Assembly: GCA_013388985.1 (NCBI GenBank)
Contig: JACAEF010000043.1
Span: 1-45,853 of the forward strand
Direction of reading: 5' to 3'
DNA length: 45,853 bases
Origin: Rhodocyclaceae bacterium
GTDB taxonomy: Bacteria > Pseudomonadota > Gammaproteobacteria > Burkholderiales > Rhodocyclaceae
In this document: positions 2,160-37,788 of the stretch, piece after piece
Layout of the letters: each line of letters begins with the position of its first letter
Numbering within the stretch: position 1 is the stretch's first letter
Made by a program: the position numbers and the translations under genes
Notes under the pieces: generated by a model
Seen by the model: only the letters and a program-made list of their open reading frames with translations
Told to the model about the DNA's origin: nothing
Databases searched by the model: none

Positions 2160-5100
2160 ATGACCGTTTCTCTCGACCTGCCGGCCGCGCCGAAGGCCGG
2201 CCAGCGCATCATTCTGCCCCCTCTCGCTGGTTCCGCCGACGCTCTGGCGCTCGCGCAGCTGGCCACGCCGGGCCGTCTGCTCGTCGCGATCGCCGCGAGT
2301 CCGCTCGAAGCGCAGCGGCTCGCCGAGGAAATCGGCTGGTTCGCGCCGAAGCTGCGCACGCATCTCTTGCCCGACTGGGAAACCCTGCCTTATGACCATT
2401 TCTCGCCGCATCAGGACCTCGTCTCCGAGCGGCTGGCGACCCTGTTCGCCGTTTCTCAGGGTCAGTGCGACGTGCTGATCGCCGCCGCCTCCACCGCCGC
2501 GACGCGGCTGGCGCCACCGGGTTTTCTCGCCGCCCACACCTTTTTCATGAAAAAAGGCGATCGGCTCGACATCGAACGCTTCCGCGCGCAGATGACGCTG
2601 GCCGGCTACCAGCATGTCACGCAGGTCGTCGCCCCCGGCGAATACAGCCTCCGCGGCGGGCTCGTCGACCTGTTTCCGATGGGCTCGGCGCTCCCTTACC
2701 GCATCGAGCTGTTCGACGACGAGATCGAAACGCTGCGCTGCTTCGACGTCGACAGCCAGAGGAGCCTCTATCCGGTGCCGGAGATCCGCCTGCTGCCGGC
2801 ACGCGAGTTCCCGACCACCGAAGCGGGGCGGACGACATTCCGCCAGCGCTTCCGCGAAACCTTCGAGGGAGATGCCTCGCGCATCGCGCTCTACAAGGAT
2901 GTCTCGAACGGCGTGTTCCCCGCCGGCATCGAGTATTACCTGCCGCTCTTTTTCAATGAGACGGCGACGCTGTTCGATTACCTGCCGGCCGACGCCACGC
3001 TCGTGCTGCATGGCGATGTGCCCGCCACGCTCGCGGAGTTCTGGGCCGAGCTGCAATCGCGCCACAAGATGCTGGGCGGCGACCGCTCGCGGCCGATCCT
3101 GCCGCCGCAGATGCTGTTCCTGCGTGACGAGGAGTTTTTCGTCCGCGCAAACGCCTTCGGCCAATACACGCTGAAAGTCGGCGCTGACGAGACGGCACAG
3201 TCCCTGCCGAACCTTGCCGTCGATCGCAAGGCCGACGATCCGCTCGCCCTCTTGCGCGGCTTTCTCGAAAGCTATCCCGGCCGGGTGCTGCTGCTGGCCG
3301 AATCGCCAGGCCGGCGCGAGACGCTCCACGAATACCTCGCCGAGCACGGTCTCGCTGCCGAAACCGTCTCCGACTTCGCCGCCTTCCTCGCTGGCGAAGC
3401 GCGGCTTGCGCTGGCCCACGCGCCCGTCTCGGGCGGTTTCCGGCTCGCCGACTTCGCCCTCGTCACCGAGAACGAGCTCTACGCCGCCACGGCCCGGCCG
3501 CGCCACAGGCGCTCGGATACGCGCCGCGCCAATCTCGAAGGCTGGCTGCGCGACCTCTCCGAGCTCAAGATCGGCGACCCGGTCGTGCATGAAAACCACG
3601 GCATCGGCCGCTATCTCGGCCTCGTGCGCATGGATCTGGGCCAGGGCGAGGAAGAATTCCTCCAGCTCGAATACGCCAACGAAGCGAAGCTCTACGTCCC
3701 GGTCGCCCAGCTCGAAGTGATCTCGCGCTACAGCGGCGTCGATCCGGAAGCGGTCGAACTCCACACGCTCGGCTCCGGCCAGTGGGAAAAGGCGAAGAAG
3801 AAGGCCGCCCTCCAGGTGCCCGACACCGCCGCGGAACTGCTGCACCTGTATGCCCAGCGCGCCGCGCGGAAGGGCCACGAGTTCAAGTTCAAGACCCACG
3901 ACCTCGAAGCCTTCGCCGCCGGCTTCGGCTTCGAGGAGACGCCGGACCAGCTCGCCGCGATCGGCGCGGTCATCACCGACATGGTCTCCGGCAAGCCGAT
4001 GGACCGCCTGGTCTGCGGCGACGTCGGCTTTGGCAAGACCGAAGTCGCGTTGCGCGCCGCCTTCGTCGCGGTCGCCGACGGCAAGCAGGTCGCGGTGCTG
4101 TGTCCGACGACGCTGCTGGCCGAGCAGCATTACCAGACCTTCGCCGACCGCTTCGCCGACTGGCCGGTCAAGGTCGCCGAGCTCTCGCGCTTCAAGTCGA
4201 AGCAGGAGCAGGCCGAAGCGGTGCAGCAACTCGCCGCGGGCAAAATCGACATCCTGATCGGCACGCACCGATTGTTGCAGCCGGATGTGAAATTTGCCCG
4301 CCTCGGTCTCGTGATCATCGACGAGGAGCATCGCTTCGGCGTGCGGCAGAAAGAAGCGCTGAAGGCGCTGCGCGCCGAAGTCGATGTGCTGACGCTGACC
4401 GCGACGCCGATCCCGCGCACGCTGGGCCTCTCGCTCGAAGGTCTGCGCGACATTTCGGTGATCGCCACACCGCCGCAAAAGCGGCTGGCGATCAAGACCT
4501 TCGTGCACAAATGGTCCAACGGCCTGGTACGCGAAGCCTGCCTGCGAGAATTCAAGCGTGGCGGCCAAGTCTATGTCTTGCATAACGAAGTCGAGACCAT
4601 CGAGAATATGCGCGACCGGCTGCAGAAATTGCTGCCGGAGGCACGCATCGTCGTCGGCCACGGCCAGCTGCCGGAACGGGAACTCGAACGCGTGATGCGC
4701 GAATTCACGCAGCAGAAGCACAACCTGCTGCTGTGCTCGACGATTATCGAAACCGGCATCGACAATCCGCACGCCAATACCATCATCATCCATCGCGCCG
4801 ACCGGTTCGGTCTCGCCCAGCTCCATCAATTGCGCGGCCGGGTCGGGCGCAGCCACCATCAGGCCTATGCCTATCTGCTCACCGACGAGCACGCCAAGCC
4901 CACCGCCCAGGCACAGCGCCGGCTCGAAGCGATCCAGGCGATGGAGGAACTCGGCTCGGGCTTCTTCCTCGCGATGCACGATCTGGAGATCCGCGGCGCC
5001 GGCGAAGTGCTCGGCGAAGCGCAGTCGGGCGAAATCCACGAAGTCGGCTTCGCGCTCTACACCAACATGCTCAACACTGCGGTGCGCGCTTTGAAGGAAG

Positions 5101-36595: not shown

Positions 36596-37788
36596 CTCTC
36601 GATACCCTGATCTTCGACGCCTCGCCCTGCGGTTTCCCCAAGCCGCGCGCGCCGCTCTTGCCGGTCGGGCTCTCTGGCATCGGTTTACGCTCCACTCACG
36701 CTTGGGCGCCCGCCGAACACTTCCGCCACTTCTCCCGCGGGCGTTACGCGCTGCGCGAAGCCTATCGCCTCGCCGGCATCGGCCCCGGCGCCGCGCTGCT
36801 TGCCCCAAGTTACCACTGCCGCACCATGCTCGACCCGGCGCTGGCGCTCGGCGGCGAGGTGCGGCTCTACCCGCTGCACCCCGATCTGACGCCCGACCTC
36901 GCCGCGCTCGACACGCTGGCGGATCAATCTCCGGCACCGGTCAAGGCCCTTCTGGCCACCCACTTCTTCGGCCTGCCGCGCGACTTCGCCGCGCTCGCCG
37001 CCTGGTGCGCCGGACGCGGCATCACGTTCGTCGAAGATGCCTCCCACGCCTTCCTCACCGAACGGTTTCGGTCCGCCGGCATCGGCGGCTTCGGCGACTT
37101 CGTCGTCAGCAGCCCTTACAAATTCCTGCCCAGCCCGGATGGCGGGCTGCTTTATACCCGCGACGCCGGACGCCTCGCCGGCATCGTCACGAAAGCCCCG
37201 GCCTGGCGCGACGAGCTGCGCGGCCTGCTGCACCTGTGGCAGAAGGCGCATGCCCGCACCCGATGCGACCTCGGCGCGCTCGACCAGGAGCTTGCCGCCA
37301 TCGCCGCGCATCCGCCGATCCCCGCCAGCGAACGCCGCGGACCCGCGGGCCCCTCGCCCGACTACCGGCCCGAACACGCCGGCATCGCCAGCCTGCGCTG
37401 CTCGCGCTGGCTCTCCCGGCATGCGGATCGTGCGAAGATCGCCGCCCGCCGCCGCGAACGTTACCGCCAGTGGGCCCAAGCGACGATGAATCTGCCATAC
37501 TGCCGGCCACTGCAACCCACATTGCCGGAAGACTGCATCCCTTACATGTTCCCGCTGCTCATCGACCGTCCGGACCCGCATTTCGACTGGCTCAAACGGC
37601 TGGGCATGCCGATCTATCGCTGGGACAGCCTCGCCGTCTCGGATTGTCCCACCGCCCGTCACTATCGCCTGCACCTGCTGCATCTACCCTGTCACCAGTC
37701 CATCAGTGATGACGAAATGGACTGGATGATCGCGGTGGTGCGCAAAATCGGCGCTGGCGGGACGGCACCGGAGAGACTTTGCGCATGA
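36592..37788 (+). CDS. DegT/DnrJ/EryC1-type aminotransferase-like protein
   Basis: 398 residues, PLP fold type I. Motifs: ALLATHFFGLPRDFAALAAW, FVEDASHAFL (cofactor Asp) and VSSPYKFLPSPDGGLLYT with Lys177 as probable Schiff-base lysine. The position is one expected of a sugar aminotransferase, but the sequence is divergent and the sugar cannot be named. Its ATG overlaps the upstream stop (ATGA); its stop overlaps the ATP-grasp start. The C-terminal 15 residues (KIGAGGTAPERLCA) come from a dispersed repeat copy beyond the last likely helix. Confidence 0.83.
   Translation: MTLDTLIFDASPCGFPKPRAPLLPVGLSGIGLRSTHAWAPAEHFRHFSRGRYALREAYRLAGIGPGAALLAPSYHCRTMLDPALALGGEVRLYPLHPDLTPDLAALDTLADQSPAPVKALLATHFFGLPRDFAALAAWCAGRGITFVEDASHAFLTERFRSAGIGGFGDFVVSSPYKFLPSPDGGLLYTRDAGRLAGIVTKAPAWRDELRGLLHLWQKAHARTRCDLGALDQELAAIAAHPPIPASERRGPAGPSPDYRPEHAGIASLRCSRWLSRHADRAKIAARRRERYRQWAQATMNLPYCRPLQPTLPEDCIPYMFPLLIDRPDPHFDWLKRLGMPIYRWDSLAVSDCPTARHYRLHLLHLPCHQSISDDEMDWMIAVVRKIGAGGTAPERLCA
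37748..37767 (+). repeat. Dispersed bipartite repeat, copy 13 (3' end of the DegT-like gene)
   Basis: Exact match, spacer gcggg, preceded by AAAA. Read as IGAGGTAP in the extreme C-terminus; the gene ends 21 bases later. Confidence 0.9.

Follow-up and report, generated by a model that had tools for sequence, protein, structure and literature searches.

Why does one two-block motif of 20 bases recur 13 times in a single contig of a Rhodocyclaceae bacterium? The stretch analyzed here (assembly GCA_013388985.1, contig JACAEF010000043.1, positions 1 to 45,853 of the forward strand; hereafter the window) carries the pattern TCGGCGCTG-N5-ACGGCA in 12 exact copies, together with one single-mismatch copy at 5710 (Table 1). 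We propose that this motif tags self DNA as a putative DNA uptake sequence (DUS) of a clade centred on Sulfuritalea, and we place the probability of this explanation at roughly 0.6. It is preferred because over-representation on both strands, placement at permissive positions, origin by substitution and clade-specific dialects are all features of uptake sequences. A sequence-only reading of the window had already listed all 13 copies, 12 of them at the correct coordinates and the other at 31605 where it begins at 31604. Among the three options raised at that time, an uptake-type sequence is the best supported below, a mobile or repetitive extragenic palindromic (REP)-like element is rejected, and binding by some protein follows from every interpretation.

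The pattern was counted on both strands, with the same pattern reversed as a control. The genome to which the window belongs (2,896,965 bases in 156 contigs; here G000) contains 455 exact copies, 236 forward and 219 reverse, against none of the reversed pattern and a chance expectation of 0.02 copies calculated from the base composition of sampled sequence of the same genome. Such extreme over-representation on both strands is a feature of uptake sequences, and the earlier statements that far less than one copy would be expected by chance and that orientation is mixed hold for the whole genome. Within the window, allowing up to three mismatches gave 21 matches, as compared to a mean of 5.8 and a maximum of 11 in 100 dinucleotide shuffles; the count over the genome, proposed earlier alongside the shuffling, was likewise far from random. 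The segment from 43.2 to 45.8 kb does lack a copy, as had been pointed out, but with copies roughly 6 kb apart a segment of this length should hold less than one, and the gap is uninformative by itself.

The full extent of the motif was determined in a relative, G080, for which 40 spread samples of 20 kb each (800 kb of 2,737,315 bases) yielded 117 exact copies. The 116 copies with full flanks gave the consensus R-AAAG-TCGGCGCTG-RYRRV-ACGGCA-C, with information limited to approximately 26 bp and flat base composition beyond. The AAA(G) preceding the window copies and the C following them, both recorded in the sequence-only reading, belong to the motif. The 5-bp spacer differs among copies, as had been described, but its sequence is constrained: most copies fit R-Y-R-R-V, GCGGG being common, and variation at its first four places consists almost purely of transitions. 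The motif is not palindromic. Counts in the G080 samples at zero, one, two and three mismatches were 117, 37, 23 and 104, versus 0, 0, 8 and 101 for the reversed control, so that perfect copies outnumber near-perfect ones.

To map the distribution of the motif, 395 genomes of the family were surveyed with the relaxed pattern AAAGTCGGCGCTG-N5-ACGGC at no more than one mismatch, for which reversed controls gave at most 2 matches per genome. At least 60 copies were found in 54 of the 395 genomes: 17 of 19 in the window's own genus, 21 of 22 in g2, all four in g46, all nine in g64, and one genome each in g9, g38 and g45. Among the remaining 341 the highest counts were 46 (G199), 19 (G023), 16 (G056), 11 (G253) and 10 (G195), with at most 8 in the others. 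The range inside the window's own genus runs from 0 (G205) to 677 (G126). A survey of the order covered 399 genomes, 13 of them from the family, and the other 386 had at most 5 copies each, with no enrichment. These surveys indicate that the motif is restricted to one Sulfuritalea-centred clade, within one family of the genome collection; NCBI taxonomy places Sulfuritalea in the Sterolibacteriaceae. Stray copies among the matches listed often have a typical spacer. Three of them lie within 4.6 kb in G428, a genome of another family, beside genes that by eye are primase/AAA-like and HicB-like, and 737 bp around one of these copies match part of G080 at 84.5% identity. The sharing of this stretch across families therefore fits transfer, in either direction.

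Dialects were compared in 12 genomes, four of which contributed few copies (G008, 10; G045, 5; G199, 4; G203, 1). The dialect end of the motif is ACGGCAC in G000, G080 and G019, and mainly ACGGCG in G187 (from the same genus as the window) and in G069, G008, G038, G046 and G148. Two of the four G199 copies have GCGGCG. In G069 the full A-tract is missing and an A is mostly added after ACGGCG (18 of 25 copies), TCGGTG replaces TCGGCG in half of the 10 copies from G008, and G045 has TCGACGCTG, with ACGGCA in four of five. A tree of 30 genomes, built with g64 left out from a single protein that we take to be Tex, separated the 11 motif-rich genomes from the rest by a branch recovered in 91% of bootstrap trees (support 91/89, below the starred level). 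When compared informally with this tree, the dialects follow the phylogeny of their carriers, as uptake-sequence dialects do.

The fate of the motif at orthologous places was followed among G000, G080 and G019. Both flanks could be located for 88 comparisons, which include reciprocal ones and so are statistically dependent; the motif was intact in 48, changed without a gap in 27, gapped in 9 and too far apart in 4. Random sites were intact in only 27 of 162 cases. Identity at orthologous places was 91–100% for the fixed bases, 68–73% for the spacer and 66–79% for the flanks, and because the fixed bases are better kept than spacer and flanks, constraint or drive acted during the divergence of these three genomes. 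The question raised earlier, whether the element in relatives is an insertion or a substitution, was answered mostly in favor of substitution: 27 of the 36 non-intact comparisons are gap-free, the other nine being gapped (for example window copy 27488 in G019). Identical codons in all relatives had also been considered beforehand, and the codons of the relatives were found to differ.

Two window genes illustrate how copies may originate. In trmJ the motif fills a linker whose length is equal in many relatives that lack the motif; the copy is also present in G080, G019 and G159, and with one mismatch in G202. G159 carries it with no indel, and G000, G080 and G019 have four extra residues just before it. 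In the NifS-like gene the place is occupied in G080 and at loci L038, L039, L050, L052 and L061, all of which read CR(L/I/V)xSADF as does the window. Imperfect versions occur at L042 (GRLASADF) and at L270 in G019 (CRIRSADF, one mismatch in the motif), and in most motif-free relatives different residues fill this place with no change in length. These alignments show that motif copies arise mostly by substitution, not by insertion. Generation of sites by point mutation is a further feature of uptake sequences, and a drive favoring the resulting alleles would complete it.

Copies inside genes are translated mainly as VGAGxTA, AVPPAP or CRxASAD, with a slight preference at most for one gene strand (42/36, 15/21 and 14/10 in three genomes). 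The fractions lying outside called genes, 39/117, 35/71 and 11/35 as compared to about 11% of random positions, are overestimates because genes were called only roughly for this purpose (trmJ of the window, for instance, went uncalled). Close pairs are rare. No two exact copies fell within 500 bp of each other in G080, where 8.7 such pairs were expected over the 37 non-empty samples (8.2 when three empty samples are included) and none of 5000 simulations was that low. The same was true in G000 (0 versus 5.3 expected; 0.2% of simulations) and in G019 (0 versus 1.4; 22% of simulations), the latter too sparse to distinguish. The closest exact pairs were 508 bp apart in G080, 648 bp in G000 and 1991 bp in G019. 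A terminator function through inverted pairs is unsupported at these distances, the closest pair of relaxed copies being 189 bp apart. Rfam models matched three tRNAs in the window and no other RNA element.

Foreign DNA offered a further comparison, since an uptake sequence would be expected to be depleted in recently acquired DNA. Three neighboring G080 samples (L147–L149, 1.80–1.94 Mb) contain no copy in 60 kb where 9.5 would be expected (P about 8e-5, for one island picked after being seen). The island has DISARM genes (for DrmA, DrmB and DrmD) as well as genes for a copper-type ATPase and oxidase and for a serine recombinase; the G080 genome is a single contig. Viral contigs of unassigned host that were chosen for having one copy carry, among the matches listed, additional copies at a density of about 4 per 100 kb; with an equal threshold the 12 host samples have 5 to 22.5 per 100 kb. 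As a separate observation, one viral contig among the matches listed (L322, IMGVR_UViG_3300009945_000063) has five exact copies at 883–2238, spaced 316, 316, 316 and 385 bp apart; no regular array of this type was seen in the G080, G000 and G019 samples.

Under the uptake explanation, a minor pilin of the type IV pilus would probably serve as the surface receptor and prefer DNA bearing AAAG-TCGGCGCTG-RYRRV-ACGGC. The pilus would draw tagged DNA inside, ComEC would move one strand into the cytoplasm, and DprA and RecA would recombine it, so that tag-bearing alleles are copied over tag-free ones. Tags could then build up by point mutation wherever a protein or spacer tolerates them, would remain nearly perfect, and could shift jointly with receptor specificity, giving rise to dialects. 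The receptor, the uptake step and the drive are the parts of this scheme that we infer.

The competence genes fit this scheme only in part, and here we gather the observations that weigh against it. ComEC was found in all 50 genomes examined and DprA above the cut-off in 49, with only a weak match in G001. Both are expected in a transformable host, but they also occur in motif-poor genomes and do not track the motif, and their presence is non-discriminating. ComEA is required for transformation in model diderms, yet a short ComEA-type protein, defined as an HHH match above the cut-off in an open frame of fewer than 450 amino acids, was detected in only 2 of 21 motif-rich genomes versus 15 of 29 others (2/21 and 10/29 with a stricter ComEA model). 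The window's own genome has a single ComEA match, in a frame of 1000 amino acids, and no short-frame match over the cut-off. Most long-frame matches above the cut-off span 620–1504 amino acids and are presumably Tex; weak short-frame matches below it occur in G019, G187 and G113. Because a ComEA-type protein was found in so few motif-rich genomes, membership in a canonical uptake system is made less probable, although uptake-like working is not. Helicobacter uses ComH as an alternative periplasmic DNA ratchet, and the scarcity of ComEA could reflect either another such ratchet, loss of uptake in many lineages, or a role of the motif inside the cell.

A receptor gene is equally hard to single out. 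The window's genome has prepilin genes that include a minor pilin of the ComP_DUS family, adjacent to one gene of GspH/FimT type, one that is PilV-like by eye, and a PilW gene. This pilin family is present in 48 of 50 genomes including motif-poor ones, and the motif-rich G045 is without it; we name no receptor because the family does not follow the motif. As a side observation, a prepilin-like protein of the same genome (C129:53837, L191) has the leader MAPMKRAVPPAPIF-SARGFTL, which is itself the AVPPAP reading of a motif copy. To the adverse points can be added the absence of any copy in G205, a genome of the window's own genus that is 87% complete, and the modest depletion of viral contigs when thresholds are equal. 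Relaxed copies (up to two mismatches) also form 7 pairs at 189–498 bp across the 12 genome samples.

A genome-wide palindromic octamer of cyanobacteria bears the name HIP1, and its function is unclear. It is a short palindrome, unlike the long and directional motif described here, with which it shares over-representation across the genome (PMC1939737). Only the Neisseriaceae and the Pasteurellaceae are known to select DNA by such tags (PMC12616744). The DUS of Neisseriaceae, whose receptor is ComP, resembles our motif in having hundreds to thousands of copies, in genes and spacers, at permissive positions and in dialects that follow phylogeny (PMC3630211). It is continuous and up to about 13 nt long (PMC12616744), as compared to two blocks around RYRRV and approximately 26 nt here, and the ComP_DUS-family pilin of the present genomes is not specific to carriers. 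Other contrasts count against an uptake function: inverted pairs are common in Neisseriaceae whereas in our samples no two copies of any orientation, also at up to two mismatches, were closer than 100 bp, one-mismatch copies exceed perfect ones there and are fewer here, and the copies per genome remain below those of Neisseria (PMC3630211). Known uptake sequences are also not evenly spaced (PMC1939737), in contrast to the rarity of close pairs in our samples.

The uptake signal sequence (USS) of Pasteurellaceae, with candidate receptor ComN/PpdA, resembles our motif in being discontinuous, up to about 32 nt long, made of a strong core and weaker parts, and divided into clade dialects (PMC12616744). 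Its core is GCGG followed by AT-rich downstream parts, whereas the present motif has two GC-rich blocks and an upstream AAA. The Pasteurellaceae are gammaproteobacteria, whereas Sulfuritalea is betaproteobacterial in NCBI taxonomy. We found no earlier report of an uptake sequence for Rhodocyclaceae, Rhodocyclales or Accumulibacter in the open-access literature, and the available text of a paper on competence in Rhodocyclaceae (PMC10257627) does not contain the term 'uptake sequence'. Papers listed as containing 11-letter pieces of the motif deal, judging by their titles, with unrelated matters. That the motif belongs to a third, independently evolved family of self-recognizing uptake systems, with a long two-block tag, lineage dialects and a mostly ComEA-free machine, is a tentative proposal to which we give somewhat less than an even chance.

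The motif could alternatively be a chromosome-wide binding site used inside the cell, by a nucleoid, segregation or recombination protein or in some HIP1-like function, and kept there by selection. The rarity of close pairs, the strong purifying pattern on the fixed bases and the finding of no ComEA in most motif-rich genomes would all suit such a site, and a cytoplasmic protein could yield dialects as well. Chi and KOPS-type sites are over-represented, directional, short and skewed relative to replication. No such skew exists here: among the 117 G080 sites strand counts are 31/29 for the half with positive skew and 29/28 for the remainder, on which grounds a Chi-type site or a polar KOPS-type segregation (FtsK) site was rejected. 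The use of both strands and of coding frames, confinement to one clade and the lack of copies in the sampled 60 kb of the island, where an architectural site should also occur but which recent arrival could equally account for, speak against an intracellular site more generally, and we consider it unlikely while keeping it under serious consideration.

Two other explanations were weighed. An ancestral uptake system might have been lost in many members of the clade, leaving sites that now decay as relics; this would agree with the finding of no ComEA in most carriers and with the spread of copy numbers inside one genus, but appears improbable given how much better the fixed bases are kept than spacer and flanks in G000, G080 and G019. 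Spread by transposition, as a mobile repeat of REP type or of the miniature inverted-repeat transposable element (MITE) type tolerated in linkers and gene ends, could be suspected from the several window copies located in such places and from the nine gapped comparisons. It is rejected as very improbable, since most non-intact comparisons are gap-free, trmJ and NifS-like lengths are kept in most relatives, the motif is non-palindromic with nothing conserved past approximately 26 bp, and a recent expansion is hard to reconcile with the small number of one-mismatch copies and with perfect blocks that flank variable spacers.

Table 1. Positions and settings of the 13 motif copies in the window, with readings in the host genes.
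Feature	Position	Strand	Setting
Exact copy, TCGGCGCTG-ACGAG-ACGGCA	3178..3197	+	In mfd (Pfam TRCF, RID, MFD_D3), read KVGADETA; intact at orthologous G019 place
Near copy, TCGGTGCTG, one mismatch	5710..5729	+	In DAHP synthase gene (Pfam DAHP_synth_1), read SVLAGRH
Copy	9194..9213	-	In tatD (Pfam TatD_DNase); adjoined by two-unit tandem insert, absent from G019
Copy	15171..15190	+	In NifS/IscS-like gene (14384-15562, minus strand; Pfam Aminotran_5), read CRIVSADF
Copy	17232..17251	+	In trmJ (17002-17745, minus strand; Pfam SpoU_methylase), linker, read AVPPAPTF
Copy	21166..21185	-	In nnr (YjeF_N + Carb_kinase), read GAVPPAPIS; in G019 the 20 bases match, gap in flank
Copy	25298..25317	+	Between called genes; intact in G019
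Copy	26184..26203	+	Start of beta-helix protein gene, read KIGAGDTAP; aligned G019 place has one mismatch, flanks poorly alike
Copy	27488..27507	+	Just past stop of beta-helix gene; G019 without copy, long gap
Copy	31604..31623	-	3-prime part of hydrolase gene, read AVLPAPTF; intact in G019
Copy	34185..34204	+	Immediately past stop of gene 32523-34184
Copy	36573..36592	+	3-prime end of gene 34226-36595 (no Pfam match), read KIGAGGTA-stop
Copy	37748..37767	+	Near 3-prime end of DegT/DnrJ-like gene (36592-37788), read KIGAGGTAP

Two places in the window have additional features. The insert beside the tatD copy (minus strand, about 9214–9400) consists of two tandem units with a period of 81 bp and cores at 9233 and 9314, and it adds residues to the protein; the motif is uninterrupted at this place in G019. 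No further copy of the insert core was found in 446 kb of the genome to which the window belongs, nor among the sampled sequences of G080, G019, G069, G187 and G148. Two IscS/NifS-like genes lie head to tail at 13153–15562, of which only the second carries a motif copy, and the pair adjoins IscU, IscA, HscB and HscA-like genes (names other than Aminotran_5 assigned by eye).

If the motif is indeed an uptake tag, this kind of bacterial sex would have evolved a third time, and in organisms represented here mostly by metagenome assemblies from the environment. The clade would then offer a new setting in which to look for the receptor, because a single family contains different dialects next to motif-poor relatives, and G205 may be useful as a control for natural loss or for a genome that never acquired the motif. 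With ComEA apparently lacking from most carriers, one would also have to ask what ratchets the DNA across their periplasm. Should the motif not serve uptake, it would represent a new kind of site that selection maintains across the chromosome in a single clade, which would also be worth knowing.

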